NCBI GenBank assembly: GCA_017533485.1 | Contig: JAFXIC010000001.1 | Span: 1 to 47,664, forward strand | Source: Oscillospiraceae bacterium | GTDB taxonomy: Bacteria; Bacillota; Clostridia; Oscillospirales; Ruminococcaceae | Length of the DNA stretch: 47,664 nucleotides | Reading direction: 5' to 3' | Part shown: positions 1,543-46,500 of the stretch, in pieces | Numbering within the stretch: position 1 is the stretch's first letter | How the letters are laid out: each line of letters begins with the position of its first letter | Notes under the pieces: generated by a model | What the model was told of the DNA's origin: nothing | Database searches by the model: none | What the model saw: only the letters and a program-made list of their open reading frames with translations | Position numbers and translations under genes: made by a program

Positions 1543-1977
1543 TTATTTTCGAAGCATTCTGACCAGTTCTTCCATCGCCATTGCATATCCGGCAAGTCCC
1601 ATGCCCTTGATTGTCTTGACACAGGCGGCTCTGACATAGGAAATACGGCGGAATTCTTCACGTGTATCGGGGTCGGTGATATGCACCTCGATGGTCGGAA
1701 TCTGCACTGCCTTTACCGCGTCGAGAATGGCAACGCTGGTGTGGGTATAGGCGGCAGGATTCATGACAATGGCATCGGCAGTCCCGAGCGCGGACTGGAT
1801 TTTATCGACGAGCGCACCCTCATGGTTGCTCTGGTAGCATTCGGCAGTAATACCGAGTTTTTCGGCGGTATCGGAAATGAGCTGTACCAAATCGGCATAG
1901 GTGCTGGTCCCGTAGTGTTCCGGCTCACGCGTCCCCAGCAGGTTCAGATTCGGTCCATTGATGACGAGTATATGCAC
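1543..1977 (-). CDS. aroQ: 3-dehydroquinate dehydratase, type II
   Basis: Dehydrates 3-dehydroquinate to 3-dehydroshikimate, step 3 of the shikimate pathway. The 144-residue length is typical of the small dodecameric type II enzyme, unrelated to the Schiff-base type I (AroD). The N-terminus carries GPNLNLLG (8-15) and the catalytic Tyr22 in EPEHYG. NPAAYTHTS and EVHITD supply further active-site positions including the catalytic His. The start is placed at a GTG: GGAGGG lies 5-6 nt upstream and the protein then begins at the conserved strand HILVINGPN. It overlaps the 3' end of the aroE-aroK fusion by 53 nt, suggesting translational coupling. It is the last gene of the aromatic operon. Confidence 0.93.
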   Translation of the reverse strand: MHILVINGPNLNLLGTREPEHYGTSTYADLVQLISDTAEKLGITAECYQSNHEGALVDKIQSALGTADAIVMNPAAYTHTSVAILDAVKAVQIPTIEVHITDPDTREEFRRISYVRAACVKTIKGMGLAGYAMAMEELVRMLRK

Positions 1978-3217
1978 AAAAATCCCTCCAGACTGCTTCT
2001 GCCGCCATATCGACAGAAGCCGTGTTTTCAATTTTCAGATCCCGAAATTTTTCGTAGAGCGGTGCTCTCCGCGCCGCAAGCTCTGACAGATCGTTTTGCA
2101 TTGAGAGCGGTCTTCCGTCGCGCGCAAGGCGTCCGAGCGGTCGGGCGATTTCATAAATCCGTCCGTTTTCGCGCAGAGGCGATTCATTGGCAGCGGTTGT
2201 GACGGCACCGCCGCCTGTGACGAGGATGATGCCGCGTGTTTGGGCAGCTTTTGCAAGGACTGCGTGTTCCATCTCCCGAAAGACAGCTTCACCATGCTGC
2301 GAAAAAATCTGCGGAATCTCCATCTTATAGGTACGGACGATTTCGGCATCGGTATCCATCAGCGTTCTTCCGGTCATTTCCGCAAGCCGCTGACCGATTG
2401 TTGTTTTTCCGCTGCCCGGCATCCCGATGAGCACGATATTTTCACAGTCCCTTTGTAAGCGTGCGCCGACCTCCGCCATTTTTTCTGCGGAAATTTCTCT
2501 GTCGAAGAAGAGTTCCTCCGCCTGTTTTGCCTGTGCGACGAGCATCGGGAATCCGACTGCATAAGAAAGACCGAGCTGCTGTGCCTGCTGGAGGAGGGCG
2601 GTGCGGCAGGGATTATAGATTACCTCCGCAACACCCGAAAGCTTTGGAAATTCGCGTAAATCAACAAGAGATTCTCCCGATTTCGGATACATTCCGACCG
2701 GTGTGGCATTGACGATCAATGTCGTATCGGGCACAGACTGCACGAGATTGTCATAGTTTAAGGCACCGCTTCTGGACGCAACGGAAACCGATGCCGCACC
2801 ATCCAGCTTTGCGACCGCCTGAATGGTCTTAGAAACGCCGCCGTTTCCGAGTACGAGAACATCCTGACCCGCGAAGGAGAGACCGCCGCGCTGCATCATA
2901 TACCGCAGTCCGTAGGCATCGGTGTTATAGCCCGTCCAGCTCCCGTCCTTTTCACGGATCATTGTATTGACGCTTCCGATCGCTTCCGCAAGAGGACTGA
3001 ATGTTCTGCAATATGCCATAACGGTCTGCTTATAGGGGATCGTGACGTTTAATCCGCGCAGATACGGCATATTCAGGAAATCCTCGATGGCATCTGGCGC
3101 GACCTCGAACAGCGCATAGTCCGGATTGCCGAATGCTGCATGGATTTCGGGGGATGCGCTGTGACCGAGATGCTCGCCGAGGAGTCCGAATGGCGTGGCA
3201 GAATTGCGATAATCCAA
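1925..3217 (-). CDS. aroE/aroK: Shikimate dehydrogenase / shikimate kinase fusion
   Basis: A 430-residue two-domain enzyme for two consecutive shikimate steps. Residues 1 to about 260 are shikimate dehydrogenase: the shikimate-binding SAS motif near 20-22, NVTIPYK with catalytic Lys63, YNTDAYG with catalytic Asp100, and the nucleotide loop LGNGGVSKT (123-131). Residues about 260-425 are shikimate kinase: Walker A GMPGSGKT (265-272), the shikimate-contacting MDTD segment, a GGGA motif and an RDGRPL lid. NADPH reduces dehydroshikimate, then ATP phosphorylates the product. The likely start is TTG at 3217, behind AAAGGGG at 9 nt. The C-terminal tail extends into the aroQ start. Both domains keep their key residues, so both activities are expected. 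Confidence 0.92.
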   Translation of the reverse strand: MDYRNSATPFGLLGEHLGHSASPEIHAAFGNPDYALFEVAPDAIEDFLNMPYLRGLNVTIPYKQTVMAYCRTFSPLAEAIGSVNTMIREKDGSWTGYNTDAYGLRYMMQRGGLSFAGQDVLVLGNGGVSKTIQAVAKLDGAASVSVASRSGALNYDNLVQSVPDTTLIVNATPVGMYPKSGESLVDLREFPKLSGVAEVIYNPCRTALLQQAQQLGLSYAVGFPMLVAQAKQAEELFFDREISAEKMAEVGARLQRDCENIVLIGMPGSGKTTIGQRLAEMTGRTLMDTDAEIVRTYKMEIPQIFSQHGEAVFREMEHAVLAKAAQTRGIILVTGGGAVTTAANESPLRENGRIYEIARPLGRLARDGRPLSMQNDLSELAARRAPLYEKFRDLKIENTASVDMAAEAVWRDFCAYTRHQWTESEPAGDA

Positions 3218-3236: not shown

Positions 3237-4382
3237 TTATCCGATCAGCTCGGAATAATTGCCGAGAAGCTGGAACGATTCACAGCTATGTTCGAGAATC
3301 GAAAGCAGTCCGACAATCCCCTCCTGATGGATGGAAGCGTCGAGATCGACATAGAACCGGTAGGAGAAATTGGTGCCGGGGATCGAAACGCTCTCGAGCT
3401 TGCACATATTGATGCCGTGGGCAGAGATTTTCGAGATTGTATGGAATAACGCACCTGCTTCGTTTTCACAGCTCAGTACAAGGCTCATACGGTCAGCCCC
3501 CGCATAACATACCGCACCTTTTGTGATACAGAGAAAGCGCGTGTCATTGTTGGGGTTGTTCTGGATTTCGTCCGCAGCAACGCGGAGTCCGTAGAGCTTT
3601 GCACAGGCTTCGGATGCGATTGCGGCAACAGACGGATCATGTGCTTCGGCAGCTCTTCGTGCGGCGTGTGCGGTGCTGCTGCACGGTACGACATCAACGC
3701 CGCCGAGCGAGCTTAAAAATTTATTGCACTGACCGGCAGCCTGTTCATGCGTGTAAATCGTGCGGATCTGCGAGATATCCGCGTCCTTTTGTGCCAGCAG
3801 TACATGACGGATTTTCAGGCGGATACCGCGGACAATCGAGAGATCAGGCGTCCGAAGCAGCTCATAGACTGCACGTACCGAACCATTGGAGCTGTTCTCG
3901 ATCGGGAGGACACCGAACTGACAAAGTCCTGCCTTTACCGCCCCGACGACAGCCGAGAAGCTGTCGAAGAAAACGAGATCCCCGCGCGGAAAGAGCTTGT
4001 CTGCTGCCATCTGGGCATTGCTGCCCTCGATTCCGAAACAGGCAACGCGTCCGGTCTGCGGGAAAACCGCCTGTTCGCGTGCACACATTTCTGCGACACG
4101 GCTAGCGGCAACAGAACCGATAAAGAGCTGTGCTGCCTGACGCGCACGCGATAATTCGAGAAGTGTGCGGAAGAACTGGTCGGCGGACGAAGCATAGGAA
4201 GCGCCGGACGATTCGTGGATTTTCGCGAGAATCTCACGTTCGCGCTTCGGGTCATAAAGCGGCTGGTGGGTTTCTTTTTTGATGTCGGCGACCTGATCGA
4301 CAAGCGCCATGCGTTCGAGAAAGAGTCGGAGGAGTTCGCTGTCAACATGATCGAGCTGATTCCGGATTTCACTTAATTCCAT
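3237..4382 (-). CDS. pheA: Bifunctional chorismate mutase / prephenate dehydratase
   Basis: Converts chorismate to prephenate and on to phenylpyruvate, the phenylalanine branch. The 381 residues divide into an AroQ-class chorismate mutase helix bundle (about 1-90; MELSEIRNQLDHVDSELL followed by conserved Arg/Lys positions), a prephenate dehydratase domain (about 110-290) with the diagnostic TRF motif at 281-283, and a C-terminal ACT domain (about 300-378) with ENEAGAL (306-312) and an LES segment. ACT domains of this family bind Phe for feedback inhibition, so product control is expected in addition to the operon attenuator. ATG follows ATAAGGAG at good spacing. It lies 39 nt after aroC and 19 nt before aroE-aroK. 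Confidence 0.95.
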   Translation of the reverse strand: MELSEIRNQLDHVDSELLRLFLERMALVDQVADIKKETHQPLYDPKREREILAKIHESSGASYASSADQFFRTLLELSRARQAAQLFIGSVAASRVAEMCAREQAVFPQTGRVACFGIEGSNAQMAADKLFPRGDLVFFDSFSAVVGAVKAGLCQFGVLPIENSSNGSVRAVYELLRTPDLSIVRGIRLKIRHVLLAQKDADISQIRTIYTHEQAAGQCNKFLSSLGGVDVVPCSSTAHAARRAAEAHDPSVAAIASEACAKLYGLRVAADEIQNNPNNDTRFLCITKGAVCYAGADRMSLVLSCENEAGALFHTISKISAHGINMCKLESVSIPGTNFSYRFYVDLDASIHQEGIVGLLSILEHSCESFQLLGNYSELIG

Positions 4383-4421: not shown

Positions 4422-5507
4422 TTATTTGCCGTTGGAAAGCAGTGTGTCGAGCAGGACGCAGGCGACTGCCGCCTCAACAACAGGTACCGCACGCTGCGCG
4501 ATACAGGGGTCATGTCTGCCGCCGATCTCGATTGTCGTATTTTCGTGCTTTTCGATCGACACCGTCTGCTGGGGTCTGCCGATCGAGGGCGTGGGCTTGA
4601 TGCCGACACGAAGCCGGATCGGCATTCCGTTTGTGATACCGCCCTGAATACCGCCGCTGTTGTTTGTTTTCGTTACAATTTCGCCGTTTTCGTTATATGT
4701 GAATGGATCGTTTGCCTGTGAGCCGCGCATCTCGGAGAGGGCAAAGCCGCCGCCGAATTCGAGTGCCTTGACCGCAGGAATGCCGAAAATGACCTGTGCA
4801 AGACGGTTTTCGATGCCGTCAAACATCGGCTCGCCCAGTCCGACCGGAAGTCCGATTGCCGCACATTCAATCGTGCCGCCGACGGAATCACGTTCTTCGC
4901 GTGCGGCAAGAATTTGTGCCTGCATCTCGGAAGCAGCAGAATCGGAAATTGTCGGAAAAGGCTTTGCGGCGATGCTCGAAAAGAGCGCAGCATCAGGAAA
5001 AATCGGGAACGGTTCATCCAACGCCGTGCCGACAGAAGCGAGGTGTGCGCCGACAAAAATCCCGTGGTGTTCAAGAATCTGAAGCGCGATGCCGCCTGCG
5101 ACACAGAGCGGTGCGGTCAGCCGTCCGGAGAAATGGCCGCCGCCGCGAAGATCCGAACTGCCTTGCCATTTCCGGATCGCGGTGAAATCGGCATGAGACG
5201 GACGAGGGGTGTCGGCGAACGGCGCATAGTCCCCCGACCGCGTGTTCTGATTGTGGATAATCGCGCAAAGCGGCGCACCTGTGGTTTTTTCGTTCTGGAT
5301 TCCGGAGAGGAATTCGGGAAGATCGGCCTCAGCGCGCGGTGTCGAAAAGGCATTCTGACCGCCCCTGCGCCGCCCCATAAAGGCGTGAAGACGGTCTGTG
5401 GAGATGGAAAATCCTGCCGGCAAGCCGTCGATGGTAACGCCGATTGCCGTGCCGTGGGATTCCCCAAAAATCGAAATTTTTAACTGTTCACCGAAGATCG
5501 AGCCCAT
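4422..5507 (-). CDS. aroC: Chorismate synthase
   Basis: Last step of the common aromatic pathway: a trans-1,4 elimination of phosphate from EPSP that needs reduced FMN. The 361-residue protein opens with IFGESHG (substrate-binding His). It contains GRRRGGQNAFSTPRAE, a region requiring conserved Arg residues, and SVGGTIECAAIGLPVGLGEP near the middle; the C-terminal RHDPCIAQRAVPVVEA segment is also typical. The start is the internal ATG at 5507, because GGGAGGA lies directly upstream and the conserved N-terminus begins there. That start overlaps the aroA 3' end by 20 nt, consistent with translational coupling. Confidence 0.95.
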   Translation of the reverse strand: MGSIFGEQLKISIFGESHGTAIGVTIDGLPAGFSISTDRLHAFMGRRRGGQNAFSTPRAEADLPEFLSGIQNEKTTGAPLCAIIHNQNTRSGDYAPFADTPRPSHADFTAIRKWQGSSDLRGGGHFSGRLTAPLCVAGGIALQILEHHGIFVGAHLASVGTALDEPFPIFPDAALFSSIAAKPFPTISDSAASEMQAQILAAREERDSVGGTIECAAIGLPVGLGEPMFDGIENRLAQVIFGIPAVKALEFGGGFALSEMRGSQANDPFTYNENGEIVTKTNNSGGIQGGITNGMPIRLRVGIKPTPSIGRPQQTVSIEKHENTTIEIGGRHDPCIAQRAVPVVEAAVACVLLDTLLSNGK

Positions 5508-6741
5508 CACAGATTCCTCCCAATTGTTGATAGCATTCAAAAAAACGTGGATACGACTTTTTCACGGCTTCTGCACCGATAATCCGAACGGACTCACGAC
5601 AGCCTGTTGCCGCGATTGCCGCCGCCATTGCAAGTCGATGGTCATTGTGTGCGTGGACGGTTCCGCCGACCAGTCCACCGCCGTGAATGGTCAGCCCGTC
5701 GGGGTGTTCGGTCACGCGGCCGCCCAACCCCCGAATCAATTCTGCTGTCGTTTCAAGACGATCGGATTCTTTGAGACGGAGCCGCTCGGCGTGCACAAAT
5801 TGCGTTTCGTGGTTTACGAATGCCGCACGAACCGCAAGAATCGGTAAGAGATCGGGAATTTGGCGCATATCAATTTCCATAACAGACGGTGCATTCTCGA
5901 AATCTCGTAAAATCGAAGAAATCTGCTTGTCGCCCTGTGGGGAATCCGGCTGGAGATTGGTGAGGTTGATTTCGCTGCCGAGCGCATTCGCTGTCAGCCA
6001 GAATGCAGCATTTGACCAATCTCCGTCGATTGAAATACTCGCAGGTGCGGAGAAAATCTGGTTTCCGCGGATGCGGTAGCGCGGAAGTCCGTCTTTTCTA
6101 TCGCTTATGATTTCGATCCCGAACTGTTTGAGAACATGAATTGTCAGGTCGAGGTACGGTTCGGATTGTAATGGCGTAGTTACGCGGATTTCGCTGTCCT
6201 CGGCGACAAGCGGCAGGGCAAGCATCAGACCGGTCAGAAATTGCGAGCTGACATTGCCGGGAAGCTCGAACATTCCGCCGCGCAGTCTGCCGGATGTCGA
6301 AAAAGGAAGCTTCTGCGAAGAAAACGTAACGCCGTGCGCCGCCATCTGGTCGGCTAATACAGAAATCGGACGTTCCGGAAGCCGCCCTGCGCCGGTAAAA
6401 TCCGTCCGCTCACAGAGCGCTGCGGCAATCGGAAGCATAAAACGAAATGTGGAACCGCTTTCGCCGCAGTCGAATTTCGCGTATTCATGTGATTTTTTGC
6501 GGCAGATCGGCGAGATTTCCGTGCGGTTTCCGTTCGGAGAAAATGCTGCGCCGAGGGCTTCGAGACATCGTACCGTCGCGAGGATGTCTTCACAGCATTC
6601 TGCGTCTGCTCCAAGATAAAATTCAGCAGATGTGTGGTTTTCGGATAGCGCAGCACAGATGAACTTTCGGTGCGCATCCGATTTTGACGGAAGGATTCCG
6701 AGCGTTCCATGAAGCTTCGAAGGCGTACAGGTAACGGTCAT
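5488..6741 (-). CDS. aroA: 3-phosphoshikimate 1-carboxyvinyltransferase (EPSP synthase)
   Basis: Transfers the enolpyruvyl group of PEP to shikimate 3-phosphate. The 417-residue length is normal. Visible motifs are PSKSDAHRK at the N-terminus (the Lys and Ser contact substrates), GESGSTFRFMLP (PEP and shikimate-phosphate binding), GDWSNAAFWL in the middle, RLKESDRLETT, and HNDHRLAMA near the C-terminus. The classic class I LFLGNAGTA-type sequence is replaced by CGESGSTFRF, a divergent variant of the PEP site. ATG follows GGAGG at 7 nt. It is separated from aroB by only 2 nt and overlaps aroC, so it is firmly inside the operon. Confidence 0.95.
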   Translation of the reverse strand: MTVTCTPSKLHGTLGILPSKSDAHRKFICAALSENHTSAEFYLGADAECCEDILATVRCLEALGAAFSPNGNRTEISPICRKKSHEYAKFDCGESGSTFRFMLPIAAALCERTDFTGAGRLPERPISVLADQMAAHGVTFSSQKLPFSTSGRLRGGMFELPGNVSSQFLTGLMLALPLVAEDSEIRVTTPLQSEPYLDLTIHVLKQFGIEIISDRKDGLPRYRIRGNQIFSAPASISIDGDWSNAAFWLTANALGSEINLTNLQPDSPQGDKQISSILRDFENAPSVMEIDMRQIPDLLPILAVRAAFVNHETQFVHAERLRLKESDRLETTAELIRGLGGRVTEHPDGLTIHGGGLVGGTVHAHNDHRLAMAAAIAATGCRESVRIIGAEAVKKSYPRFFECYQQLGGICDGLDLR

Positions 6742-6743
6742 TT

Positions 6744-7817
6744 TCAGCCCTCCAATCCGTCTTGGAAGAGCTGTTCAAGCTCGGTGCGCGGGATTTTTTC
6801 CATTCGACACTTCCCGATTTCTTCCGGGAGAATCACTGTAATCGACGTATTCGCGGCTTTTTTATCGCTCTGCGCGATCTCCGCCATCTCTTTCGCAGAA
6901 AATGGGCAGTCGATCGGCAGATTGTTGCGGCGGAGGGTATCGAGAATCCGCTCAGCATCGCAATTTTTGATGATTCCTACTTTTTTCGCTGCACGGGTCA
7001 TCATCGCAATTCCGATTCCAACTGCATGACCATGAGAAATCTCGAAGCTGCTGAGAATTTCTATTGCGTGCGCAGGCGTATGACCGAGATTCAGGAGCTT
7101 TCGGACACCCTTTTCTGTCGGATCCTCCGAAACAATCTTTGCCTTGTATGCCACAGATTTCGCGATAATTTCAGTATAATCGGTATCTGCCGCGGTTCGG
7201 TCTTCGGATTCGAACAACTCGAAAAGTGACGTATCACCGAGGATTCCTGTTTTGATTGCTTCCGCCGCGCCATCTGCTCTGCAAAGCGGCGTCAGCGTTC
7301 CCATCGTATCGGGATCGCAAAGGACTGCGCTTGGTTGATGGAAAAGACCAGCCAGATTTTTGCCCTGCGGAAGATTGATTGCGGTTTTTCCGCCGACGGA
7401 CGCATCGACAGCTGCGAGAAGGGTTGTCGGGATCTGGACGAAGCGGATGCCGCGGAGATAGCAGCCGGCGGCGAATCCGGTCAGGTCACCAATGATGCCG
7501 CCGCCGAGAGATACCGCGAGATCTGTCCGTGTGAGACGGGCATCCGCCATCGCCTCCAGCAGTTCCCCCAGCACAGGCAGTGATTTGGTCGGCTCTCCTG
7601 CCGGAAAGATCTTTTTGTGCACGGTAAATCCGGCTGATTTTAATGATTCTGCGGCGGTTTCAAGGTAGAGTGGTGCGACATTTTCATCCGATACCAGCAT
7701 GACATGACAGGGCGGTACGAGGGATGAAATCGCGGTGCCGCAGTTTTTTAATAAGCCGCGTTCGATTTGAATCGGGTAGGACTGTCCATCCTCCAGCGAC
7801 AGATTTAAGCTTGGCAT
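6744..7817 (-). CDS. aroB: 3-dehydroquinate synthase
   Basis: Cyclises DAHP to 3-dehydroquinate, step 2 of the shikimate pathway, using NAD+ and a divalent metal. The 357-residue protein has the N-terminal nucleotide-binding half with SLGGGIIGDLTGFAAGCYLRG (the GGG loop binds NAD) and a C-terminal metal-binding half with GHTPAHAIE and SHGHAVGIGIA, supplying the conserved His ligands. The segment FVQIPTTLLAAVDASVGGK is also strongly conserved. ATG is preceded by AGGAG at 8 nt. It sits 20 nt behind tyrA and 2 nt before aroA. Confidence 0.96.
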   Translation of the reverse strand: MPSLNLSLEDGQSYPIQIERGLLKNCGTAISSLVPPCHVMLVSDENVAPLYLETAAESLKSAGFTVHKKIFPAGEPTKSLPVLGELLEAMADARLTRTDLAVSLGGGIIGDLTGFAAGCYLRGIRFVQIPTTLLAAVDASVGGKTAINLPQGKNLAGLFHQPSAVLCDPDTMGTLTPLCRADGAAEAIKTGILGDTSLFELFESEDRTAADTDYTEIIAKSVAYKAKIVSEDPTEKGVRKLLNLGHTPAHAIEILSSFEISHGHAVGIGIAMMTRAAKKVGIIKNCDAERILDTLRRNNLPIDCPFSAKEMAEIAQSDKKAANTSITVILPEEIGKCRMEKIPRTELEQLFQDGLEG

Positions 7818-7837: not shown

Positions 7838-8677
7838 TCAGTTTCCGCCGGCGCCGGCTTTTGCGATTTTACCGGCACGCAGACATTCTCTGAGCGCATC
7901 GGCATCTTTGGCTTCGATGGCGTCAAGATATTCCTGTAAATTGCGGATGAGCGTCCGGAGTTCATCCGTTAAATAGTCCGTATTTTCGAGCATAAGCTCT
8001 GTCCACATATTCTCATCCAGACGCGCGACACGGGTCATATCGCGGAAGCTTCCGGCGGAAAAACCACGCCGTTCCTGTGCAGTCTGTGACTTAACGTATG
8101 CGCCGGAAACGATATGTGCAAGCTGTGAGGTGTAGGCGATGATCCGGTCATGGTCGGCGGGTGTCGAAAAGGTCAGCCCCGAAAAACCGATGTCCAGCAT
8201 ATAATTTTTCAGCATCTCCAGCGTTTTCATGTCCACTGTCTCATCGGGTGTGAGAATCATGGATGCGCCGTCAAAGAGATTTTCCGAAGAATTGACGAAG
8301 CCGCCGACCTCTTTGCCTGCCATGGGGTGGCCGCCGATATAACGGAAGCCATTGTCCTTTGCGAGCCGGCCCATCCGTTCGCAGATTCCGCGCTTCACGC
8401 CGCAGATATCGACGACGAGACAGTTTCCGCTGCCGAGCTGGGTACGGTGTGCGATTGCCCATTCCTCTGCGGCACCGGGGCGGAGTGCGATCAGTACGAG
8501 GTCACACTCCGGAATCAGTTCGTCTGTCAGCGGTGCGTCCATTGCGCCGGAGAGTCTTGCGAGGAGCTGAACCTCGTGGTCAAGGTCAAATCCATATATC
8601 TCATGAGAAGTGCGCTGTTTCGTGGCTTTTGCGAATGAGCCGCCGATCAGCCCAAGACCGATTACTGCAATTTTCAT
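7838..8677 (-). CDS. tyrA: Prephenate dehydrogenase
   Basis: Oxidatively decarboxylates prephenate to 4-hydroxyphenylpyruvate, the tyrosine branch. The protein (279 residues from the ATG) has an N-terminal Rossmann loop GLGLIGGS, the segment GGHPMAGKEVGG with the active-site His, and a helical dimerisation C-terminus (FRDMTRVARLDENMW). No ACT domain follows, unlike many Firmicute TyrA proteins, so Tyr feedback may act elsewhere, for example on the DAHP synthase. Two starts compete: GTG at 8683 (4 nt from GGAG) and ATG at 8677 (10 nt). The ATG gives the standard N-terminus. Gaps are 29 nt to aroF and 20 nt to aroB. Confidence 0.93.
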   Translation of the reverse strand: MKIAVIGLGLIGGSFAKATKQRTSHEIYGFDLDHEVQLLARLSGAMDAPLTDELIPECDLVLIALRPGAAEEWAIAHRTQLGSGNCLVVDICGVKRGICERMGRLAKDNGFRYIGGHPMAGKEVGGFVNSSENLFDGASMILTPDETVDMKTLEMLKNYMLDIGFSGLTFSTPADHDRIIAYTSQLAHIVSGAYVKSQTAQERRGFSAGSFRDMTRVARLDENMWTELMLENTDYLTDELRTLIRNLQEYLDAIEAKDADALRECLRAGKIAKAGAGGN

Positions 8678-8706
8678 AATCACGATGCTCCAATCTGTAT
8701 GGATGG

Positions 8707-9732
8707 TTATACGAGTGTGGGTGCAGGGTGGGAAGCGAGGAAGTCATGAAGCGCATAGAGGTGTTTCGCGAGCGCATCAAAGCTTTCGGGGCGAATTGAC
8801 TGCGGCCCGTCACATACCGCGTGTGCAGGATCGTTGTGGACTTCGATGATGAGACCGTCCGCGCCTGCTGTGACGGCGGCAGGCGCCGTCTGCGGTACGA
8901 GCCATGCTTTTCCTGCGGCGTGGCTGGGGTCAATGATAATCGGGATATGGGTCAGACGGCGGAGCACCGGTACTGCACCGATATCGAGTGTATTTCTTGT
9001 ATAGGTTTCGAAGGTGCGGATGCCGCGCTCACAGAGAATGACATTGTGGTTGCCGCCGGCCATGATATATTCCGCGCTCATCAGCCATTCCTCATAGGTT
9101 GCACAGAGTCCGCGCTTGAGGAGTACAGGCTTTTCCTGTCTTCCGAGGCGTTTCAGGAGATCGAAGTTCTGCATATTTCTTGCACCGACCTGAATCAGAT
9201 CGACATCGGCGAATTCCGGAAGCTGGGAAGCGTCCATAATTTCCGTTACAATCGGAAGACCGGTTTCTTCGCGTGCAACCTTTAAAAGCTCAAGTCCGCG
9301 GGTTCCCATACCCTGGAAGGAGTAGGGGGAGGTACGGGGCTTGTATGCGCCGCCGCGGAGGATGGTTGCACCGCTTGCCTTGACCTGTTTTGCGATGGCA
9401 ACGATCTGTTCTTCGCTTTCGACCGAGCAGGGGCCTGCCATCAGCGTCAGACTTCCGCCGCCGATTGTGGTATTGCCGACCGGAATGATTGTCGGATCGG
9501 GATGGAATTTCCGGTTTGCGTGCTTATAGGGTTCTTGTACACGCTTGACATCCTCTACGATATCGAGTGCAGAAATGAGGTCTGTGTCGATCGCGGCAGT
9601 ATCGCCTACCAGTCCTAAGATGGTATGAGAGGTACCGACGCTCTTGTGGACATCAATCTGTTTTTCCGCAAGCCAGTCCATCAGGCTTGCGAGCTGGGCT
9701 TCATTGGGGTTTTGTTTGAGAACAACGATCAT
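8707..9732 (-). CDS. aroF: 3-deoxy-7-phosphoheptulonate (DAHP) synthase, type I-beta
   Basis: Condenses PEP and erythrose 4-phosphate, the entry step of aromatic amino acid synthesis. The 341-residue product starts MIVVLKQNPNEAQ and carries an N-terminal ferredoxin-like regulatory domain (about 1-70), as in the Thermotoga type of DAHP synthase where it mediates feedback inhibition by Tyr. The TIM-barrel catalytic domain follows with AGPCSVES, RGGAYKPRTSPYSFQG, GARNMQNFDLL and DPSHAAGK. The start is the internal ATG preceded by AAGGAAGG. It is first in the operon, directly behind the terminator of the Phe/Tyr leader, as expected for the committed enzyme under end-product control. Confidence 0.95.
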   Translation of the reverse strand: MIVVLKQNPNEAQLASLMDWLAEKQIDVHKSVGTSHTILGLVGDTAAIDTDLISALDIVEDVKRVQEPYKHANRKFHPDPTIIPVGNTTIGGGSLTLMAGPCSVESEEQIVAIAKQVKASGATILRGGAYKPRTSPYSFQGMGTRGLELLKVAREETGLPIVTEIMDASQLPEFADVDLIQVGARNMQNFDLLKRLGRQEKPVLLKRGLCATYEEWLMSAEYIMAGGNHNVILCERGIRTFETYTRNTLDIGAVPVLRRLTHIPIIIDPSHAAGKAWLVPQTAPAAVTAGADGLIIEVHNDPAHAVCDGPQSIRPESFDALAKHLYALHDFLASHPAPTLV

Positions 9733-9774
9733 GCGTAATTCCTTCCTTTCGGTATGCATCAGTTTTGTGATACG

Positions 9775-9807
9775 AAAAAACGCTCACAGCCGGTTTGACT
9801 GTGAGCG
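9775..9807 (-). terminator. Attenuator terminator ahead of aroF
   Basis: On the minus strand CGCTCACAG (9799-9807) and CTGTGAGCG (9781-9789) form a perfect 9-bp stem with a 9-nt loop, followed at once by six U residues (9775-9780). It lies between the aromatic leader peptide and aroF, about 43 nt before the aroF start. Its position inside the 5' leader makes it an attenuator rather than an end-of-operon terminator. An upstream GGCUCACGC stretch (about 9835-9844) resembles the 5' arm and might compete for the 3' arm; this is speculative. Confidence 0.85.
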
Positions 9808-9856
9808 CGTTGGTATCGAAATGAAATTTCCGGATGCGTGAGCCGCAAAACAGATT

Positions 9857-9970
9857 TCACTGAACTTCGTGCGTTGTTCCAGACAAACCGAAAGAGACCT
9901 CATCTTTAAAAAAGAAAAAGCCATAATAAAAGTATTCGGTTGCAAAAAACTTCGCATTCATATGAAACAT
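9857..9970 (-). CDS. Phe/Tyr-rich leader peptide of the aromatic operon
   Basis: A 37-codon reading frame on the minus strand that fits a transcription-attenuation leader. ATG at 9970 is preceded by AAAGGAG at 10 nt. Residues 8-21 read FFATEYFYYGFFFF: 10 of 14 are Phe or Tyr, including four consecutive Phe codons. The frame ends at TGA about 50 nt before the terminator stem. The promoter at 10006-10034 places the transcription start about 30 nt upstream. The operon it precedes makes exactly Phe and Tyr. By analogy with the pheA and trp leaders of enterobacteria, ribosome stalling at scarce Tyr-tRNA or Phe-tRNA would prevent the terminator from forming. Function is inferred; the reading frame, ribosome site and codon bias are directly visible. 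Confidence 0.85.
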   Translation of the reverse strand: MFHMNAKFFATEYFYYGFFFFKDEVSFGLSGTTHEVQ

Positions 9971-10005
9971 TTTGTACGGACTCCTTTCTTCCGAATTCTG
10001 TTATT

Positions 10006-10034
10006 ATGATACCACAGCCGCGGCGAAAAATCAA
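10006..10034 (-). promoter_or_regulatory. Promoter of the aromatic amino acid operon
   Basis: On the minus strand -35 TTGATT (10029-10034) and -10 TATCAT (10006-10011) are 17 bp apart, with a TG element one base upstream of the -10 (extended -10). The predicted transcript begins near 9999 and reads into the aromatic leader peptide. A TTGACA lies slightly further upstream but at 24 bp spacing, so it is less suitable. Confidence 0.7.
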
Positions 10035-10244: not shown

Positions 10245-11561
10245 ATGAGCAAAGCAAAGGAACAGAAATCTTCTTCCGGTATCTCGTTCATCATGGTTTT
10301 AGTGCTGCTGCTTTCCATCGCAGGCCTTGCGTTTGGTGCATATAAGCTGATTATGGACGGAAAGGATACCGTTCCCCCGACCGGCTCGATTACCATGAAA
10401 GTCGGTGAGGTACGGACACTGGAAACGGTGATCGGTACGGATTTTACCTGCCAGATTTATGACGAATCCATCGCGGTGATTGATGAAACCCATCTTCTGA
10501 CTGCAACAGCCGCAGGCTCGACGACAATTGTCGCACAGTCCCCCGACGGCAAGAGTCAGGTCTTTTCGCTGACCGTAACCGGCGAGGGTGTGGTCTTTGT
10601 CACCGAAACGACTACGACCACCACCACCACCGAAACGACCACGATGGAAACGACAACACAGCCGCTTCCCGAAGGTTCTGTCACCGGCATCGAGCTTACC
10701 TTCTATTCCGTCACCCTGAAAGTAGGCGAAAAGAAAATGCCGATCGTAACAATGTTCCCTGCGGATGCGAATGATAAGTCCGAAAAATGGACATCCACCG
10801 ACGATAAGGTTGCAAAGGTAGACTGGCTCGGCAATATCACCGCAGTCGCACCCGGAACCTGCACCATCCGCGTCACTTCCGTCAATAACCCGAATGTATA
10901 TGCAGAAGTCTCTGTAACCGTTCCCGGTGCTTCTACCACCACAACAACAACCACTACGACTGCTGCAACCACGACCACTACGACCACCTCTGCACTGTCC
11001 TCGTCCACGACCACTACAACTACGACCAATGCTGCAAATGCAGACGGTCTGACTTATGTACAGGGCATCCTGATTGCCAATAAAACCTATGGCTTGCCCG
11101 CGGACTATAATCCCGGCGTGGACAGCGCCGCACAAGCTGCTTTCAATACGATGCAGGCAGCTGCAAAAAAAGACGGAAAAAGCCTGAGCATCTGCTCAGG
11201 CTTTCGTTCTTACGCACTACAGAAAACCCTCTACGATAAATATGTCAAGCGCGACGGAAAGGCAAAAGCCGACACCTATTCTGCGCGGCCGGGCCATTCC
11301 GAGCATCAGACCGGACTGGCGTTTGATATCAATAAGGCAAGCGACAGCTTTGCGAATACGCCCGAAGCGAAATGGCTGGCAGATAACTGCTGGAAATACG
11401 GCTTTATCATCCGCTATCCGAAGGGCAAGGAACATATCACAGGCTATAAGTATGAGCCGTGGCATATCCGCTATCTCGGTACAGAGCTTGCCGAAAAGGT
11501 ATACCGCAGCGGCAAGACGCTGGAGGAATATCTCGGTATCACATCTGTCTATCAGGACTGA
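10245..11561 (+). CDS. Membrane-anchored D,D-carboxypeptidase (VanY/M15B) with two Ig-like domains
   Basis: A surface peptidoglycan enzyme of 438 residues, predicted to trim the terminal D-Ala of stem peptides. Residues about 14-36 form one N-terminal membrane anchor. Two bacterial Ig-like (Big_2-type) domains follow (about 48-115 and 145-224), each flanked by Thr-rich linkers (about 120-141 and 226-263). The C-terminal domain (about 265-430) is M15B peptidase: SGFRSYALQ, then HSEHQTGLAFD with zinc ligands H354 and D361, and EPWH with catalytic E404 and ligand H407. All metal residues are intact, so it should be active. The Thr linkers look like those of the scaffoldins and the CapA lipoprotein in this window. 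A vancomycin-resistance role is not implied; no van regulators or ligases are nearby. Confidence 0.9.
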   Translation: MSKAKEQKSSSGISFIMVLVLLLSIAGLAFGAYKLIMDGKDTVPPTGSITMKVGEVRTLETVIGTDFTCQIYDESIAVIDETHLLTATAAGSTTIVAQSPDGKSQVFSLTVTGEGVVFVTETTTTTTTTETTTMETTTQPLPEGSVTGIELTFYSVTLKVGEKKMPIVTMFPADANDKSEKWTSTDDKVAKVDWLGNITAVAPGTCTIRVTSVNNPNVYAEVSVTVPGASTTTTTTTTTAATTTTTTTSALSSSTTTTTTTNAANADGLTYVQGILIANKTYGLPADYNPGVDSAAQAAFNTMQAAAKKDGKSLSICSGFRSYALQKTLYDKYVKRDGKAKADTYSARPGHSEHQTGLAFDINKASDSFANTPEAKWLADNCWKYGFIIRYPKGKEHITGYKYEPWHIRYLGTELAEKVYRSGKTLEEYLGITSVYQD

Positions 11562-12876: not shown

Positions 12877-13469
12877 ACAATATTTTTTCTGTATTCTTAT
12901 GTTTATCTTCCTAGCATTGTTTTCGTGCTGGGATAAAACGAAAGGGGCAAACCAAGGGCAAGGGGGGAGTGTTCGAGCACCGCTCTCACGTCTCCCCCTT
13001 ACCCTATGGTTTTCCCCTTTCAAACCCCTTTCCGTTACCCATCCCCCCTCTAGAGGCGTGCTCTTACGATAAAAATGGTTGAAATAATTTGCGTGCAGAT
13101 GATTGATGTTCTGTATGGGGCGCGGTGCTTGTAAGTAAGTGCGTTCTGATAAGGTGCAGCATAAGAGAGGAGGGGATGAGTTGGAAGGGGGTACAAGGGG
13201 GAAACCCTGAAGGGGAGGAGAGAATGCGCGGGAGCGCTCTTTCCTCCCCTATGGGTGTCCCCCTTGATCTTTATTCGGATATAAGAAGAAAGGGGACAAC
13301 CAAAGATAAGGGGGAGTGTTCGAACTTCGTTCTCACGTCTCCCCCTTCCCTATGGGTGTCCCCCTTGTTTCGTTTACGGATATAAAAAGAATGAGGAGAA
13401 TGAAAGTAAGGGAGTGTTCAAGCAACGTGCGCAACTCGCCCCCTTGGTTATTTTCGCTTTATGATTCCG
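12877..13469. repeat. Repeat-filled noncoding region: copies B, C and D of the palindromic element
   Basis: No gene is supported here. 12962-13009 repeats the GGGGGAGTGTTCGAGC...CTCCCCC module (copy C), and the bases after it resemble the tail of copy A. 13161-13266 is nearly identical to 29-136 (copy B, left module). 13309-13355 is nearly identical to 161-207 (right module). 13408-13448 holds a degenerate fourth version. Each module has GGGGG-type blocks pairing with CCCCC-type blocks, giving long hairpins. The frame 13125-13385 crosses only repeat sequence and is rejected as a gene. The cluster sits between the 3' ends of pyrB and acpP, which converge. Confidence 0.75.
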
Positions 13470-41382: not shown

Positions 41383-43428
41383 ATGAAGAAATTCATCTCT
41401 GCACTCACTTCTGTCGCAATCGCTGCGACCGCTATGGGCAGTGTGCTTTCTATGAGCGCAAGTGCAGCAGTCGACTCTACGATTTTTGATATTCGTACCG
41501 GAGACTCCAATGCAATTACTGTATCTGCTGCTGATATCGCTGCAGGCGATGTTACAGTCCCTGTTTCCATTTATATTCCGCAGTGCGAAGGTGTAAACAC
41601 CGTCGCAATCAAGCTCGCTGTAAACGGCGACGAAACAATCGGCAAGGCTCCTGCTACCCATAAGTACCTCTTCGGTAACTATGGCATTACCATTCAGGCT
41701 GCTGCTGAGGGCGGAAACACCAGAGCTGAAGGCTATGCAAAAACTGCTTGTCTGGACGCTGAAAAGAAGGGTAACGTCGCTTACCAGTCTCCGATCTTCA
41801 CTCCGGACTACTTCAGCTTCAGCTACATGAACCAGAGCAACATCATGGAAGAGAAGAACTGCACCAACTACAGCGCAAAGCTTGCGACTGAAGCATCGGA
41901 TGTAACTTCCTGGTCTGAGAGCGAGTCCTGGGCATACGATCACCCGCTGTTCGTATTCGACATGGTTCTCCCGAAGGGCCTTGCAGACGGCACATATACC
42001 CTTGATATCTACACCAAGGACTATGTCAATGCAACATCCCTGAACGATCCGGAGCCGACCTACACCGCTAGCTATATTGCAGGTGTTGACGGAACTGTAA
42101 ACCTCGTTTCCAGACCTCTGGTCGTAACTGTCGGCGAGGGCGGTTCCAATACCACTCCGTCCAGCTCTTCTTCTACCACTACCACTACTACCACATCTAC
42201 TTCCACCACTCCGCCGTCTTCTGATGCAATGCAGATCATCGGCGACAAGAAGACTGCAAAGCCGGGCGACACCGTAAGAGCAGGCTTCATCGTGAAGAAT
42301 GACCCGGGTACTGCTGGTATGCAGCTCTTCTTCGATACCGCTCCGTTTGACAGCGTTGAGATGGTTGACCTCGAAGACGAGGATCCCGCTTACTTCATCA
42401 GCCCGACCTGGAACCCTGCAGTCGGCAGCTTCGTCTGGGGCGGCGCAAACAACGAAGAAGTTGAAGAAGGCGGCTACCTCGCAGTCTTCGAACTCAAGGT
42501 TCCGGCAGATGCTTCCGGCACGCTGAAGCTCGATCTCAACAAGAACGAGAAGAACGCAGTCCGTAACCGCGATATGCAGGATAACAAGTTCAGCCTCTCC
42601 CCGATCGAGATTACCGTCGAAGGCGGCTCCACTTCTTCTACCACCATCTCTTCTACCACTCCGGAGCCGGGCGATACCGACGCTATGCAGATCATCGGCG
42701 ACAAGAAGACCGCGAAGCCGGGCGATGTCGTAAGAGCTGGCTTCATCGTGAAGAATGACCCGGGTACTGCTGGTATGCAGCTCTTCTTCGATACCGCTGC
42801 ATTCGCAAAGGTAGAGATGGTTGACCTCGAAGACGAGGATCCCGCTTACTTCATCAGCCCGACCTGGAACGGCAAAGTTGGCAGCTTCGTATGGGGCGGC
42901 GCAAACAACGAAGAAGTTGAAGAGGGCGGCTACCTCGTAGTCTTCGAACTGACTGTTCCGGATGATGCAACCGGCACCCTCAAGCTCGACCTCAATAAGG
43001 CAGAAAAGAACGCAATCCGTAACCGCGATATGGAGGATAACAAGTTCAGCCTCTCCCCGATCGAGATCACAATCGCTTCCGAAGATACCACCACTTCTTC
43101 TTCCACTACAACTTCCACCACCACTTCTTCTACCACTTCTTCCACTACAACTTCCACCACCACTTCCTCTACTCCGGAGTCTAAGGTTGTATGGGGCGAC
43201 GTAAACTGCGACGCTAAGGTTTCTATCGCTGACGTTGTTCTCCTCAACAAGCACAATGCTCAGAACGCAAATGTTACTGCACAGGGCCTCCTGAACGCAG
43301 ACTGCGTAAACGATGAGAAGCTTGACTCTGCTGACGCTACCGCAATTAAGGGTCACCTGGCTAAGTTCTATGGCACAGATGCATTCCCGTTTGCAAGCCT
43401 CGCAGACTGCACCGCAAAAATGAAATAA
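41383..43428 (+). CDS. scaA: Primary scaffoldin ScaA: N-terminal unknown domain, two cohesins, dockerin
   Basis: A secreted 681-residue scaffoldin that collects dockerin-bearing enzymes. Signal peptide about 1-29. Residues about 30-255 are a domain I cannot assign; its first and last strands look cohesin-like but the middle is unrelated. Thr/Ser linkers separate the following modules (about 257-281, 413-434, 567-600). Cohesins lie at about 283-412 and 435-566, nearly identical, each with DPGTAGMQLFFDT and SFVWGGANNEEVEEGGYL. The dockerin (about 603-665) has loops GDVNCDAKVSIADVVLLNK and NADCVNDEKLDSADATAIK, with Cys and Glu at some unusual positions. In R. flavefaciens the ScaA dockerin binds ScaB cohesins. 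A long opposite-strand frame here is a codon-bias artefact. Confidence 0.92.
   Translation: MKKFISALTSVAIAATAMGSVLSMSASAAVDSTIFDIRTGDSNAITVSAADIAAGDVTVPVSIYIPQCEGVNTVAIKLAVNGDETIGKAPATHKYLFGNYGITIQAAAEGGNTRAEGYAKTACLDAEKKGNVAYQSPIFTPDYFSFSYMNQSNIMEEKNCTNYSAKLATEASDVTSWSESESWAYDHPLFVFDMVLPKGLADGTYTLDIYTKDYVNATSLNDPEPTYTASYIAGVDGTVNLVSRPLVVTVGEGGSNTTPSSSSSTTTTTTTSTSTTPPSSDAMQIIGDKKTAKPGDTVRAGFIVKNDPGTAGMQLFFDTAPFDSVEMVDLEDEDPAYFISPTWNPAVGSFVWGGANNEEVEEGGYLAVFELKVPADASGTLKLDLNKNEKNAVRNRDMQDNKFSLSPIEITVEGGSTSSTTISSTTPEPGDTDAMQIIGDKKTAKPGDVVRAGFIVKNDPGTAGMQLFFDTAAFAKVEMVDLEDEDPAYFISPTWNGKVGSFVWGGANNEEVEEGGYLVVFELTVPDDATGTLKLDLNKAEKNAIRNRDMEDNKFSLSPIEITIASEDTTTSSSTTTSTTTSSTTSSTTTSTTTSSTPESKVVWGDVNCDAKVSIADVVLLNKHNAQNANVTAQGLLNADCVNDEKLDSADATAIKGHLAKFYGTDAFPFASLADCTAKMK
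42226..43085 (+). repeat. Tandem cohesin-coding repeats in scaA
   Basis: The cohesin segments beginning at 42229 and 42685 are highly similar in DNA, with long runs of identity, for example in the region coding GFIVKNDPGTAGMQLFF. This suggests recent duplication or gene conversion. Both are more like each other than like any ScaB cohesin. Confidence 0.85.
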
Positions 43429-43561: not shown

Positions 43562-46500
43562 ATGAAGAGATTCATTTCTGCTTTGTCTTCCTTCTGTCTG
43601 GCTGCGACCTCTGTCCTCTCCAGCTTTACAGCGCTGACCGCTAGTGCGGCAGCCGGCGCGATCACCATCACCGGTGATAAGGTATCTGCTTCCGCAGGTC
43701 AGAAAGTTGAGTTCGGATTTAAGGTTTCGGATGCTTCCGAAGCCGCTGGTATGCAGCTTTTCTTCGATTTCGATGGTCTCCAGAATGTTGAGATGGTCGA
43801 AGAATTGGACAATCCCGCATACTTTGTTTCCCCTGTATTCAATGAGTCAGTCGGAAGCTTCGTATGGGGCGGCGCAACCGATATGGCTGCAGAAGATGGC
43901 GGCGATCTGGTAATCTTTACCGCAACCGTTCCTTCCAATGCCAAGTCCACTTATGAAGTTAAGCTCAACTCCAGCGAAAAGAACGCAGTTCGTAACAGAA
44001 ACATGGAAGACCTGACTATTAACTTCACATCCGCTGTGATTTCTGTTGCCGGCGGCTCCGATGTCGGCGGCGATGATCCGAGCGGTGCGATGAACATCAC
44101 AGGTAATAAGGTTTCTGCAAAGGCAGGCGAAACCGTTCAGGTCGCTTTCAAGGTGACTGATGACCCCGGTACTGCCGGTATGCAGCTCTTCTTTGACTTC
44201 GATGGTCTGACCAATGTGAAGATGATCGAAGATCTCGATAATCCCGCATACTTCGCATCCCCTGTATTCAATGCTTCTGTCGGAAGCTTTGTATGGGGCG
44301 GCGCAACTGATATGGTTGCCGAAGACGGCGGCGATCTCGTAATCTTTGAGGTCACCATTCCTGCGAATGCAAAGTCTTCCTACTCGATCGGTCTCAATTC
44401 TTCCGAGAAGAATGCTGTCCGTAACCGCGAAATGGAGGACATCACCTATAAGTTCACCAATGCTGTGATTACTGTTACCGGTTCCGCTCCGATCGAAGGC
44501 GCGATGAACATCACCGGTCAGAATGTAACTGCAAAGCCGGGCGATACTGTTCAGGTTGCTTTCCAGGTCTCGGATGACCCCGGTACTGCCGGTATGCAGC
44601 TCTTCTTCGACTTCGATGGTCTGACCAATGTGGCGATGATCGAAGATCTCGATAACCCCGCATACTTTGTTTCCCCTGTATTCAATGAGTCGGTCGGAAG
44701 CTTCGTATGGGGCGGCGCAACTGATATGGTTGCCGAAGACGGCGGCGATCTCGTCATCTTCGAGGTGAAGATCCCCACCAATGCAAAGTCTTCTTACACA
44801 ATTGATCTCAACCGCAGCGAAAAGAATGCTGTTCGTAACCGCGAAATGCAGGACGTTGTGTATAACTTCACCGCTGCTGTGATCACTGTAACCGGCGGCT
44901 CCGATATCGTGGATCCTCCTGCTGATGGTATGCGTCTCGTTGGTGACAACGTAACCGCTCCCGCAGGTTCTACCGTTCAGGTCGGCTGCAAGGTCTATGA
45001 TGACCCCGGTACTGCCGGAATGCAGCTCTTCTTCGATTTCGATGGTCTGACCAATGTTACAATGATCGAAGATCTCGATGAGCCCGCATACTTTGTTTCC
45101 CCCGTATTCAATGATTCGATCGGAAGCTTCGTATGGGGCGGCGCAACTGATATGGTTGCTGAAGACGGCGGCTATCTCGTTGTCTTCGAAGTGGAAATCC
45201 CCGCAAATGCAAAGGATATCTACGAAATTACGCTCAATCAGAGCGAAAAGAACGCAATCCGCAACCGCAACATGGAAGACATTACGTACAGCTATTCTCC
45301 GATGGTCATCACCGTTGGCGAACCGCTTCCGCCTGTTGAAGGCGAGATCACTCTCACCGGCGATAAGGTGACAGCAAAGGCTGGCGAAACTGTCGAAGTT
45401 GCAGTTAAGATTTACGGCGACCCCGGTTCTGCCGGTATGCAGATGTTCCTTGACTTCGGTAAGCTCGAAGATGTCTCTCTCGTCGATAGAAAGAATCCGG
45501 CATACTTCGTTGACATGACCGCAAACCTCAAGGAAGGCTTCATCGGCTGGGGCGGCGCAAAAGAGTATGTTGCAGAAGACGGATCTGACCTCATTCGCCT
45601 GCGTGTTACCGTTCCGGAAAGTGCAAAGGCTGGCGATGTCTTTAAGATTCAGCTCCGCTCCGATTCCGAAACCAAGATCCAGAACCTCAATATGCAGGAT
45701 ATTCCGTATACATTCAGCCCGATCGAAATCACGGTTGGTGATACGGAAACCACCACTTCCGCTACGACCACTACCACTACGGAAACCGATCCGATCGTTC
45801 CGGCCGGTAAGTCCGAGTGGACCATCGACACCGTTACCGCAGCGCCCAATGACATCGTTTCCGTTCCTGTAAAGGTTACCAACGATGAGGGTACTTCCGG
45901 TTTCGTTGTTACCTTCGATTATAAGGAAGGCCTGATCTTCGACAGCATCACATGGGGCTCCGGCTATACCGGCGAGGCTACCATCAACGGCAATGCTCTG
46001 ACTGTTGTCTGGGCTGATGCTTCCGGTAAGGATGCAGTCGCAGGCTCCGGCGAAATCCTTTCTCTCAACTTCAAGACTCCGGATGCAGCAGGCGTTTACC
46101 CTGTCACATTCGAAGCACTCGAAGTTGTCAACACTTCCGGTAATGCGCTTAGCGTCACGAAGACCAATGGTGCAGTTATCATCGATCCGACCGCTCAGCC
46201 GACTGCAAAGTCTGACTGGACAATCGGCACTGTCACCGTTCAGGCTGGCGCAGAAGTTGCAGTTCCTGTAACTGTTGAAAACGATGAAGGTACTTCCGGC
46301 TTTGTTGTAACATTCGATTATGACGAGGCTCTGACCTTCAAGAACATTGAATGGGGCGAGGGCTACACCGGCGAAGCTACCATCAATGGCAATGCACTGA
46401 CTGTTGTCTGGGCTGATAACAGCGGCAACAATGTTCAGGCTGGTTCCGGCAATGTCATGACCATCAACTTCACCGCTCCGGATGCAGCAGGTACATATCC

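Follow-up and report, generated by a model that had tools for sequence, protein, structure and literature searches.

Ribosome-mediated attenuation is the mechanism of the enterobacterial pheA and trp leaders, and T-boxes controlling amino-acid genes are typical of the Bacillota. According to the excerpts used of PMC2494555, a T-box controls the tyrosine operon in the Bacillus cereus group. Leader peptides have been described in Firmicutes as well: the excerpts used of Naville and Gautheret 2010 (PMC2965389) report histidine leader peptides in bacilli, which are regular leader peptides replacing T-boxes like the leader presented here, but concern histidine and the hisS/hisZ genes.

Two reports come closer to the aromatic pathway. 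Stav et al. 2019 analysed five genomes, one of them Clostridium novyi, and list two candidate Phe/Tyr-encoding uORFs at shikimate genes (PMC6429828, excerpts); they share with our leader the coding of Phe plus Tyr at shikimate genes, as far as can be judged from the figure legend. The uORFC-13-1 of Brewer et al. 2021 lies ahead of an apparent terminator and upstream of aroF exclusively (PMC8632094, excerpts). Compared by description, it resembles the present locus in having a uORF and an apparent terminator ahead of aroF, but it comprises 24 sequences, from Acholeplasma and environmental sources, and its U run codes for at least one Phe. In the excerpts used of PMC11109978, PMC1262725 and PMC2494555, no Phe/Tyr leader peptide of the present kind was found.

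Here we describe a leader in an Oscillospiraceae bacterium, in a stretch of 47,664 nt that was analysed as a whole and is called the window. Like the enterobacterial pheA and trp attenuators, it has a leader ORF with regulatory codons and an antiterminator competing with an intrinsic terminator ahead of biosynthetic genes. It differs from them in that Phe and Tyr would be read together, that the whole shikimate pathway and both branches lie downstream, that the host belongs to the Bacillota, and that no Rfam leader matches. The attenuation mechanism is already known and the idea of an aroF leader is partly known; our additions are the leader family around the window's genus, its covarying antiterminator, its tyrA copies and the variant with an antisense transporter gene.

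A Phe- and Tyr-rich leader ORF ahead of the aromatic operon

The first-pass annotation had claimed a promoter, a ribosome site and a 37-codon frame with a run of Phe and Tyr codons ahead of aroF, and all of them were located on the minus strand (Table 1). It had also claimed a 9-bp stem followed by six U residues. The hairpin and the six U are there, between the leader ORF and aroF, but the terminator scan counts 12 pairs, 7 of them G-C, with the 9 bp as the core inside.

Table 1. Coordinates of the leader and of the aromatic operon in the window.
Feature	Position	Strand	Details	Basis
Promoter, sigma-70-like	10006..10034	-	TTGATT-17-TATCAT, TG ahead of -10	consensus match only
-35 and -10 boxes	10034-10029; 10011-10006	-	TTGATT; TATCAT	9/12 consensus matches
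Shine-Dalgarno of leader ORF	9981..9987	-	AAAGGAG	
Leader peptide ORF	9857..9970	-	37 codons, ATG 9970, stop 9859-9857, peptide MFHMNAKFFATEYFYYGFFFFKDEVSFGLSGTTHEVQ	
Aromatic codon run	9908..9949	-	codons 8-21, FFATEYFYYGFFFF, Phe/Tyr 10/14, proposed stall site	
Segment 1	9932..9943	-	codons A-T-E-Y, proposed partner of segment 2 (anti-antiterminator)	fold
P1 hairpin, within leader ORF	9896..9922	-	5' arm 9922-9914, 3' arm 9904-9896	alignment pairing
Segment 2	9880..9890	-	antiterminator 5' arm, CGGUUUGUCUG	
Segment 3	9791..9801	-	antiterminator 3' arm, common to terminator 5' arm and loop, CAGUCAAACCG	
Intrinsic terminator	9775..9807	-	stem-loop 9807-9781, U-tract 9780-9775 (six T)	terminator scan
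aroF	8707..9732	-	DAHP synthase with FXD domain; start 9732 favoured over 9759	
tyrA	7838..8683	-	prephenate dehydrogenase	Pfam
aroB	6744..7817	-	3-dehydroquinate synthase	Pfam
aroA	5488..6741	-	EPSP synthase	Pfam
aroC	4422..5540	-	chorismate synthase; listed ORF, real start possibly internal	Pfam
pheA	3237..4382	-	chorismate mutase-prephenate dehydratase	Pfam
aroE-aroK fusion	1925..3217	-	shikimate dehydrogenase and shikimate kinase	Pfam
aroQ	1543..2031	-	type II dehydroquinase; listed ORF, real start possibly internal	Pfam

The density of aromatic residues sets the leader apart. The six frames of the window contain 728 ORFs of 12-70 aa, and no other ORF among them reaches 10 Phe/Tyr within 14 residues; the runner-up has 6. 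When 859 kb from 80 related loci were searched, 19 ORFs with at least 9 Phe/Tyr in 14 residues were found, and 18 of them begin at most 450 nt upstream of aroF on the same strand; the one at L068 among these 18 is not the leader itself. The match to a promoter is not beyond chance, with 9 promoter-like sites in the 10.3 kb scanned versus 8.1 expected, and neither are terminator-like sites as such (10 in the 10.3 kb scanned versus 11.9 expected); the leader hairpin ranks first among these 10.

Downstream of the leader the gene order is aroF tyrA aroB aroA aroC pheA aroEK aroQ, as assigned with Pfam (gene names follow from the families). This bears out the gene content claimed for the operon, since the shikimate pathway and both the Phe and the Tyr branch were identified; trp genes are absent from it. 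The eight genes would form one transcript, and pfkA, the gene after aroQ, has its own promoter-like site at 1528-1500. The ATG at 9732, preceded by AAAGGAAGGA at 9749-9740, is judged from sequence the more likely start of aroF than the upstream ATG at 9759, because relatives begin aroF at MIVVLK, and this start leaves 42 nt between the end of the U-tract and aroF.

Several other features of the window were recorded. A dispersed repeat is present at 4-217, 12933-13021 and 13137-13445, with 76-90% identity between copies, which carry look-alike ORFs (MSWKGVQG..) at 43 and near 13170. The divergent gene at 10245-11558 on the plus strand has VanY and Big_2 domains, and its best NCBIfam model, LdcB, scores under its cut-off. 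Near the other end, a protein with five cohesin stretches (43562-47662, plus strand, open at the window end) adjoins a dockerin-domain protein (41383-43425, plus strand), and this pair looks like a cellulosome scaffold region.

A covarying antiterminator competes with the terminator

Folding of the RNA to look for a competing antiterminator, as proposed with the first-pass annotation, was successful: the complement of the terminator 5' arm and loop was found 3' of the aromatic run and was named segment 2. Since segment 3 is common to the 2:3 pairing and to the terminator, the two structures are mutually exclusive. The antiterminator sequence varies widely by group, for example GGUUUGGCUG with CAGUCAAAUC or CAGCCGAACC, GGUUAAUUUG with CAGAUUAAC, and UUAAUGAGU with ACUCAUUA.

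The segment 2 of each locus was paired with its own terminator 5' half and with those of other loci in a fair re-pairing test, in which every locus pairing was free to find its best duplex. For 76 loci the summed duplex energy was -1151.7 with the own terminator versus -883.7 (sd 23.1) after re-pairing, and for 30 dissimilar loci -460.6 versus -345.8 (sd 13.9); in both cases 0 of 5000 re-pairings were as low. A second 2:3 re-pairing test is biased, because there segment 2 had been picked by its fit to the own terminator.

In an alignment of 29 leader sequences, from which the covariance model R1 was built, 90.1% of the antiterminator cells are paired with 9 double-change cells, compared to 98.8% and 57 for the terminator and 95.6% and 13 for P1. 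The covariation score was reached in 0 of 500 shuffles for each of the three elements. By the count of pairs with double changes, the terminator is exceptional (4/500 shuffles), and the antiterminator (72/500) and P1 (263/500) are not beyond the shuffles. Set against dinucleotide shuffles of single loci, the antiterminator gives a modest signal: the mean z is -1.6, and 28 of 76 loci reach the 5% level or better, as is to be expected of some 10 bp within a long region. In L028 and L047 the ORF ends ahead of segment 2, yet GGTTTGGCTGAAA is retained, so segment 2 is conserved as RNA. P1 is possibly a pause hairpin.

The pairing of segment 1 with segment 2 was analysed in the same ways. On the alignment columns, 44 of 500 shuffles were as good in pairing and 115 of 500 in covariation. 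Re-pairing gave 0/5000 for 76 loci, 3/5000 for 23 dissimilar loci and 32/5000 for 33 window-type loci, which favours the 1:2 pairing in the wider set. For the window itself, the alignment columns and the stall model described below speak weakly for this pairing or against it.

Stall geometry and proposed mechanism

When the whole leader is folded to equilibrium, the terminator forms. For this reason, our stall model considers the transcript at the stage when segment 3 is complete and segment 4 is still to be synthesised, and folds only the RNA downstream of the ribosome. For the window, the modelled antiterminator probability is 0.82-0.89 with the A site at codons 2-24, 0.51 at codon 25, 0.21 at codon 26 and 0.00 from codon 27 on, and the ten aromatic codons of the run thus fall on the permissive side of the modelled switch. 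A similar pattern was obtained for 12 relatives picked by hand from 76, with an antiterminator probability of at least 0.80 at the aromatic codons of the run and a drop beyond it; in the short leaders L069 and L082 the model still gives values of 0.10 and 0.34, respectively, once the stop codon is reached. Segment 2 follows the last aromatic codon of the run at a median distance of 21 nt (quartiles 18 and 23), and the distance is at least 12 nt in 70 of 76 leaders. This spacing and the modelled stall pattern are the layout of classical attenuation.

Without a ribosome, the modelled antiterminator probability is 0.22 or less in 8 of the 12 relatives and 0.67-0.96 in the other 4. In the window it is 0.88, and since the antiterminator is likely there even without a ribosome, the model leaves the basal off state of the window unexplained. 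Thus, stall-dependent antitermination is well supported, whereas protection of the off state in the window strain is not supported.

We propose that the aro leader acts by ribosome-mediated transcription attenuation and gauges how much charged tRNA-Phe and tRNA-Tyr is available, and we assign this reading a probability of about 0.9. That the aromatic run, the terminator and the antiterminator recur is shown by comparison of sequences, whereas the stall geometry comes from the model. The leader is presumably translated and would respond to Phe and Tyr as follows. When both amino acids are plentiful, the ribosome would pass the aromatic codons and cover segment 2 (codons 27-31) while segment 3 emerges; segment 3 would then pair with segment 4, forming the terminator, and transcription would end ahead of aroF. 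When Phe or Tyr is short, the ribosome would stall within codons 8-21, so that segment 2, left free, could pair with segment 3 ahead of the synthesis of segment 4. Terminator formation would then be prevented, and the common pathway would be transcribed together with both branches. If the ribosome is absent, segment 1 would pair with segment 2.

Conservation of the leader in relatives

Conservation of the codon run and of the terminator in relatives had been set beforehand as the test that could refute the leader; both were found to be conserved, and the antiterminator covaries in addition. Our genus sample comprised 30 genomes, 28 of them with an aroF match, and 27 loci were readable since the one in G029 ends at a contig edge. 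The leader and the terminator lie directly ahead of aroF in 15 of these 27 genomes, the window included.

Close relatives were taken as the best 80 of 593 by aroF, and 78 of these loci have at least 150 nt upstream. An aromatic-rich leader with a terminator is present at 64 of the 78, among them records from Oscillibacter and from Clostridium as well as single bins that carry the labels Lentisphaerae and Kiritimatiellae; two of these loci, L030 and L046, are genus genomes that are counted in the genus sample too. Six loci have a leader and no terminator accepted by the finder (L053, L076, L085, L099, L100 and L109; three are Pelosinus records), one (L039) is of the interrupted type described below, and seven are without a leader (L057, L058, L060, L077, L080, L094 and L104). 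By hand, the terminators of L029 and L044 were set, L028 was admitted and L060 was discarded as a false leader.

The 76 distinct leader peptides have a median length of 31 aa, with a range from 16 to 44, and their stop codon is located between 54 nt after and 18 nt before segment 2. At 76 of 79 loci the run contains both Phe and Tyr, and Trp occurs in 10 of the 76. Phe, Tyr or Trp account for 561 of the 793 run codons in frame versus 105 and 165 in the other frames, an excess that arises partly by construction, because the runs were picked for density in that frame. Similarly, the picking of leaders favoured ATG starts and Shine-Dalgarno sites, so that their frequencies (76/76 and 67/76) are not independent evidence. 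A test on synonymous codons revealed no in-frame excess in the genus (0.150 vs 0.148 and 0.157), and in the Oscillibacter-type set it gave 0.209 in frame vs 0.091 and 0.189.

In a phylum-wide sample, 109 of 119 genomes have an aroF match. The most similar of these added 29 new loci, one of them unreadable, and 10 of the 28 readable aroF loci have such a leader (terminators were outside this count), while 18 do not. The scope of the leader had been called unusual at first; this rarity is unsupported, as aroF is commonly preceded by such leaders in the order and in other Clostridia, and shikimate uORFs with aromatic codons are already in print.

Five Clostridium-type leaders (L072, L087, L096, L102 and L223) share another pattern, F-rich, then W, then FSAGY. 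The sequences suggest a second leader family, which may sense Trp too.

Family spread and copies at tyrA

With an E-value limit of 0.001, the model R1 matched 77 places in 73 of the 394 genomes of the order sample. We examined 49 of these places: 41 are ahead of aroF, 4 ahead of tyrA and 4 ahead of neither. In the class sample, 26 of 291 genomes were matched at E up to 0.01, and among the 28 places beyond the window 11 were examined: 7 lie ahead of aroF with an aromatic leader, which include all six with E below 1e-5 and one weaker match, and 4 lie ahead of neither gene. The model reaches nearer relatives only, because the RNA sequence changes fast. Seven weak matches (L191, L193, L198, L242, L243, L244 and L246) without an aromatic leader or an adjacent aro gene were taken as chance, and L192, also weak, has no aro gene and matches part of the model only.

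The tyrA copies (L180, L183, L185 and L187) are second leaders of the same kind. They precede a tyrA gene that stands by itself, in four genomes of the order that also have a copy at aroF. In one of them, L187, the antiterminator pairing is weak (-7.7 kcal/mol).

Alternative explanations

TnaC is the model for an arrest peptide, and the leader could be imagined as a nascent peptide of this kind, in which the conserved RFYGF or RYFSF motifs sense free Phe/Tyr and stall the ribosome independently of codon hunger. Such motifs indeed recur in the leaders of the genus and of the Oscillibacter type. However, part of the motif overlaps the P1 pairing, and outside this group the runs vary freely (YFYFYYYF, FYYFYFYF, YYYYYF), so that aromatic content and not one motif is kept. 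We therefore regard an arrest peptide as improbable.

Still less probable, in our view, is a ligand-binding riboswitch or a protein-bound leader with an incidental ORF. The strong conservation of P1, segment 2 and the terminator would fit such an RNA, as would the position of segment 2 outside the ORF in the two leaders mentioned above. Against it, aromatic runs recur here in leaders of unrelated RNA sequence, and the same DNA has few dense aromatic ORFs at other places. Moreover, no Rfam family reached its threshold on the leaders scanned, the two T-box matches being elsewhere and on the other strand. If the ORF encoded a small hydrophobic peptide with a function in the membrane, and the terminator behind it were an ordinary one, the aromatic, hydrophobic character and the conserved position of the ORF would be accounted for. 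This reading is hardly credible given the variable peptide length and stop position relative to segment 2, and it leaves the antiterminator without a role.

The first pass had contrasted the leader with the T-boxes or TRAP that are usual in Firmicutes for such operons, and the contrast with T-boxes is seen within the same genome. The source genome has seven matches to RF00230 (T-box), two of them over the cut-off, all on contigs other than that of the aro leader. The genes behind them, read by eye from the protein, are presumably trpB, a second trpB, valS, ilvA, leuA and others. In the Rfam scan the aro leader itself had no RF00230 match, and its 7 matches with E of 10 or less included no leader-peptide family; RsaD with 25.6 bits (cut-off 50) and the trpB motif with 25.5 bits (cut-off 59) scored highest.

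A variant interrupted by a transporter gene

That aroF is leaderless in the other 12 of the 27 readable genus genomes was rejected, since R1 found the leader upstream on the same contig in 10 of them and on another contig in two (G014 and G025). In the ten (G002, G003, G015, G016, G018, G019, G021, G023, G026 and G027), leader and aroF are on the same strand, about 1.5-1.8 kb apart, and an NSS transporter gene is located between them on the opposite strand. We infer the same arrangement across contig ends for G014 and G025. The leader terminator abuts the 3' end of the transporter gene, which spans 360-2132 in L169 (G016). The transporter belongs to the Pfam family SNF, and its nearest solved structure is 4us3_A (E 8.4e-79), which we take to be MhsT, a hydrophobic amino-acid transporter.

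The interrupted-type leader is not decaying, because it scores 91-121 bits with R1 (the contig-edge match of G025, 70 bits, left out) with no member in the model, compared to 88-129 bits in the direct group, of which 14 of 15 members are in the model. Twelve interrupted-type leaders were read, from the ten genomes, from G014 and from one additional contig of G013. Segment 2 pairs with the terminator in 11 of them, as a raw count with no shuffle control; the terminator of L157 had been misplaced by the script. Mapping the interrupted state onto the aroF tree takes 4 changes, and well-supported branches force at least 2 of these, so that gain or loss of the arrangement has occurred repeatedly. 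The extra interrupted-type leader copies of G013 (contigs C244 and C205, L174 and L175) possibly lie on foreign contigs; this genome is listed with 5% contamination.

The promoter scan of L169 revealed sites for the leader (TTGCAA-17-TATAAT) and for the transporter and no site facing aroF in the gap between transporter and aroF; one weak promoter-like site (9/12) facing aroF lies inside the transporter gene, at 1444-1471. It is conceivable, and we suggest it tentatively, that some members of the genus use this attenuator to control a noncontiguous operon, with the starvation transcript running antisense through the NSS gene and on into the aro genes. Both noncontiguous operons and antisense RNAs gated by metabolites have been described (excerpts of PMC7154746). 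The ten genus genomes resemble noncontiguous operons and excludons in the opposite-strand gene between leader and aroF, but entry here would be via a leader-peptide attenuator, whereas the metabolite-gated antisense RNAs in these excerpts use riboswitches (rli39, S-box; PMC7154746). In the same excerpts of the noncontiguous-operon and excludon literature (PMC7154746), no leader-peptide-gated noncontiguous operon was met.

Implications

If our reading of the sequences is correct, the Phe/Tyr pathway in a T-box-bearing Bacillota genome has a leader peptide of the enterobacterial style. The family is wide, the scanned leaders gave no Rfam match, and the antiterminators form a natural series in which unrelated sequences share one geometry. 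Should the interrupted variant work as suggested, stalling on the leader peptide would turn on synthesis and at once interfere with transport, and one hairpin would be able to act as terminator for both strands. The antisense-transporter variant thus represents a clear test of whether attenuation coordinates synthesis and transport via overlapping transcription.
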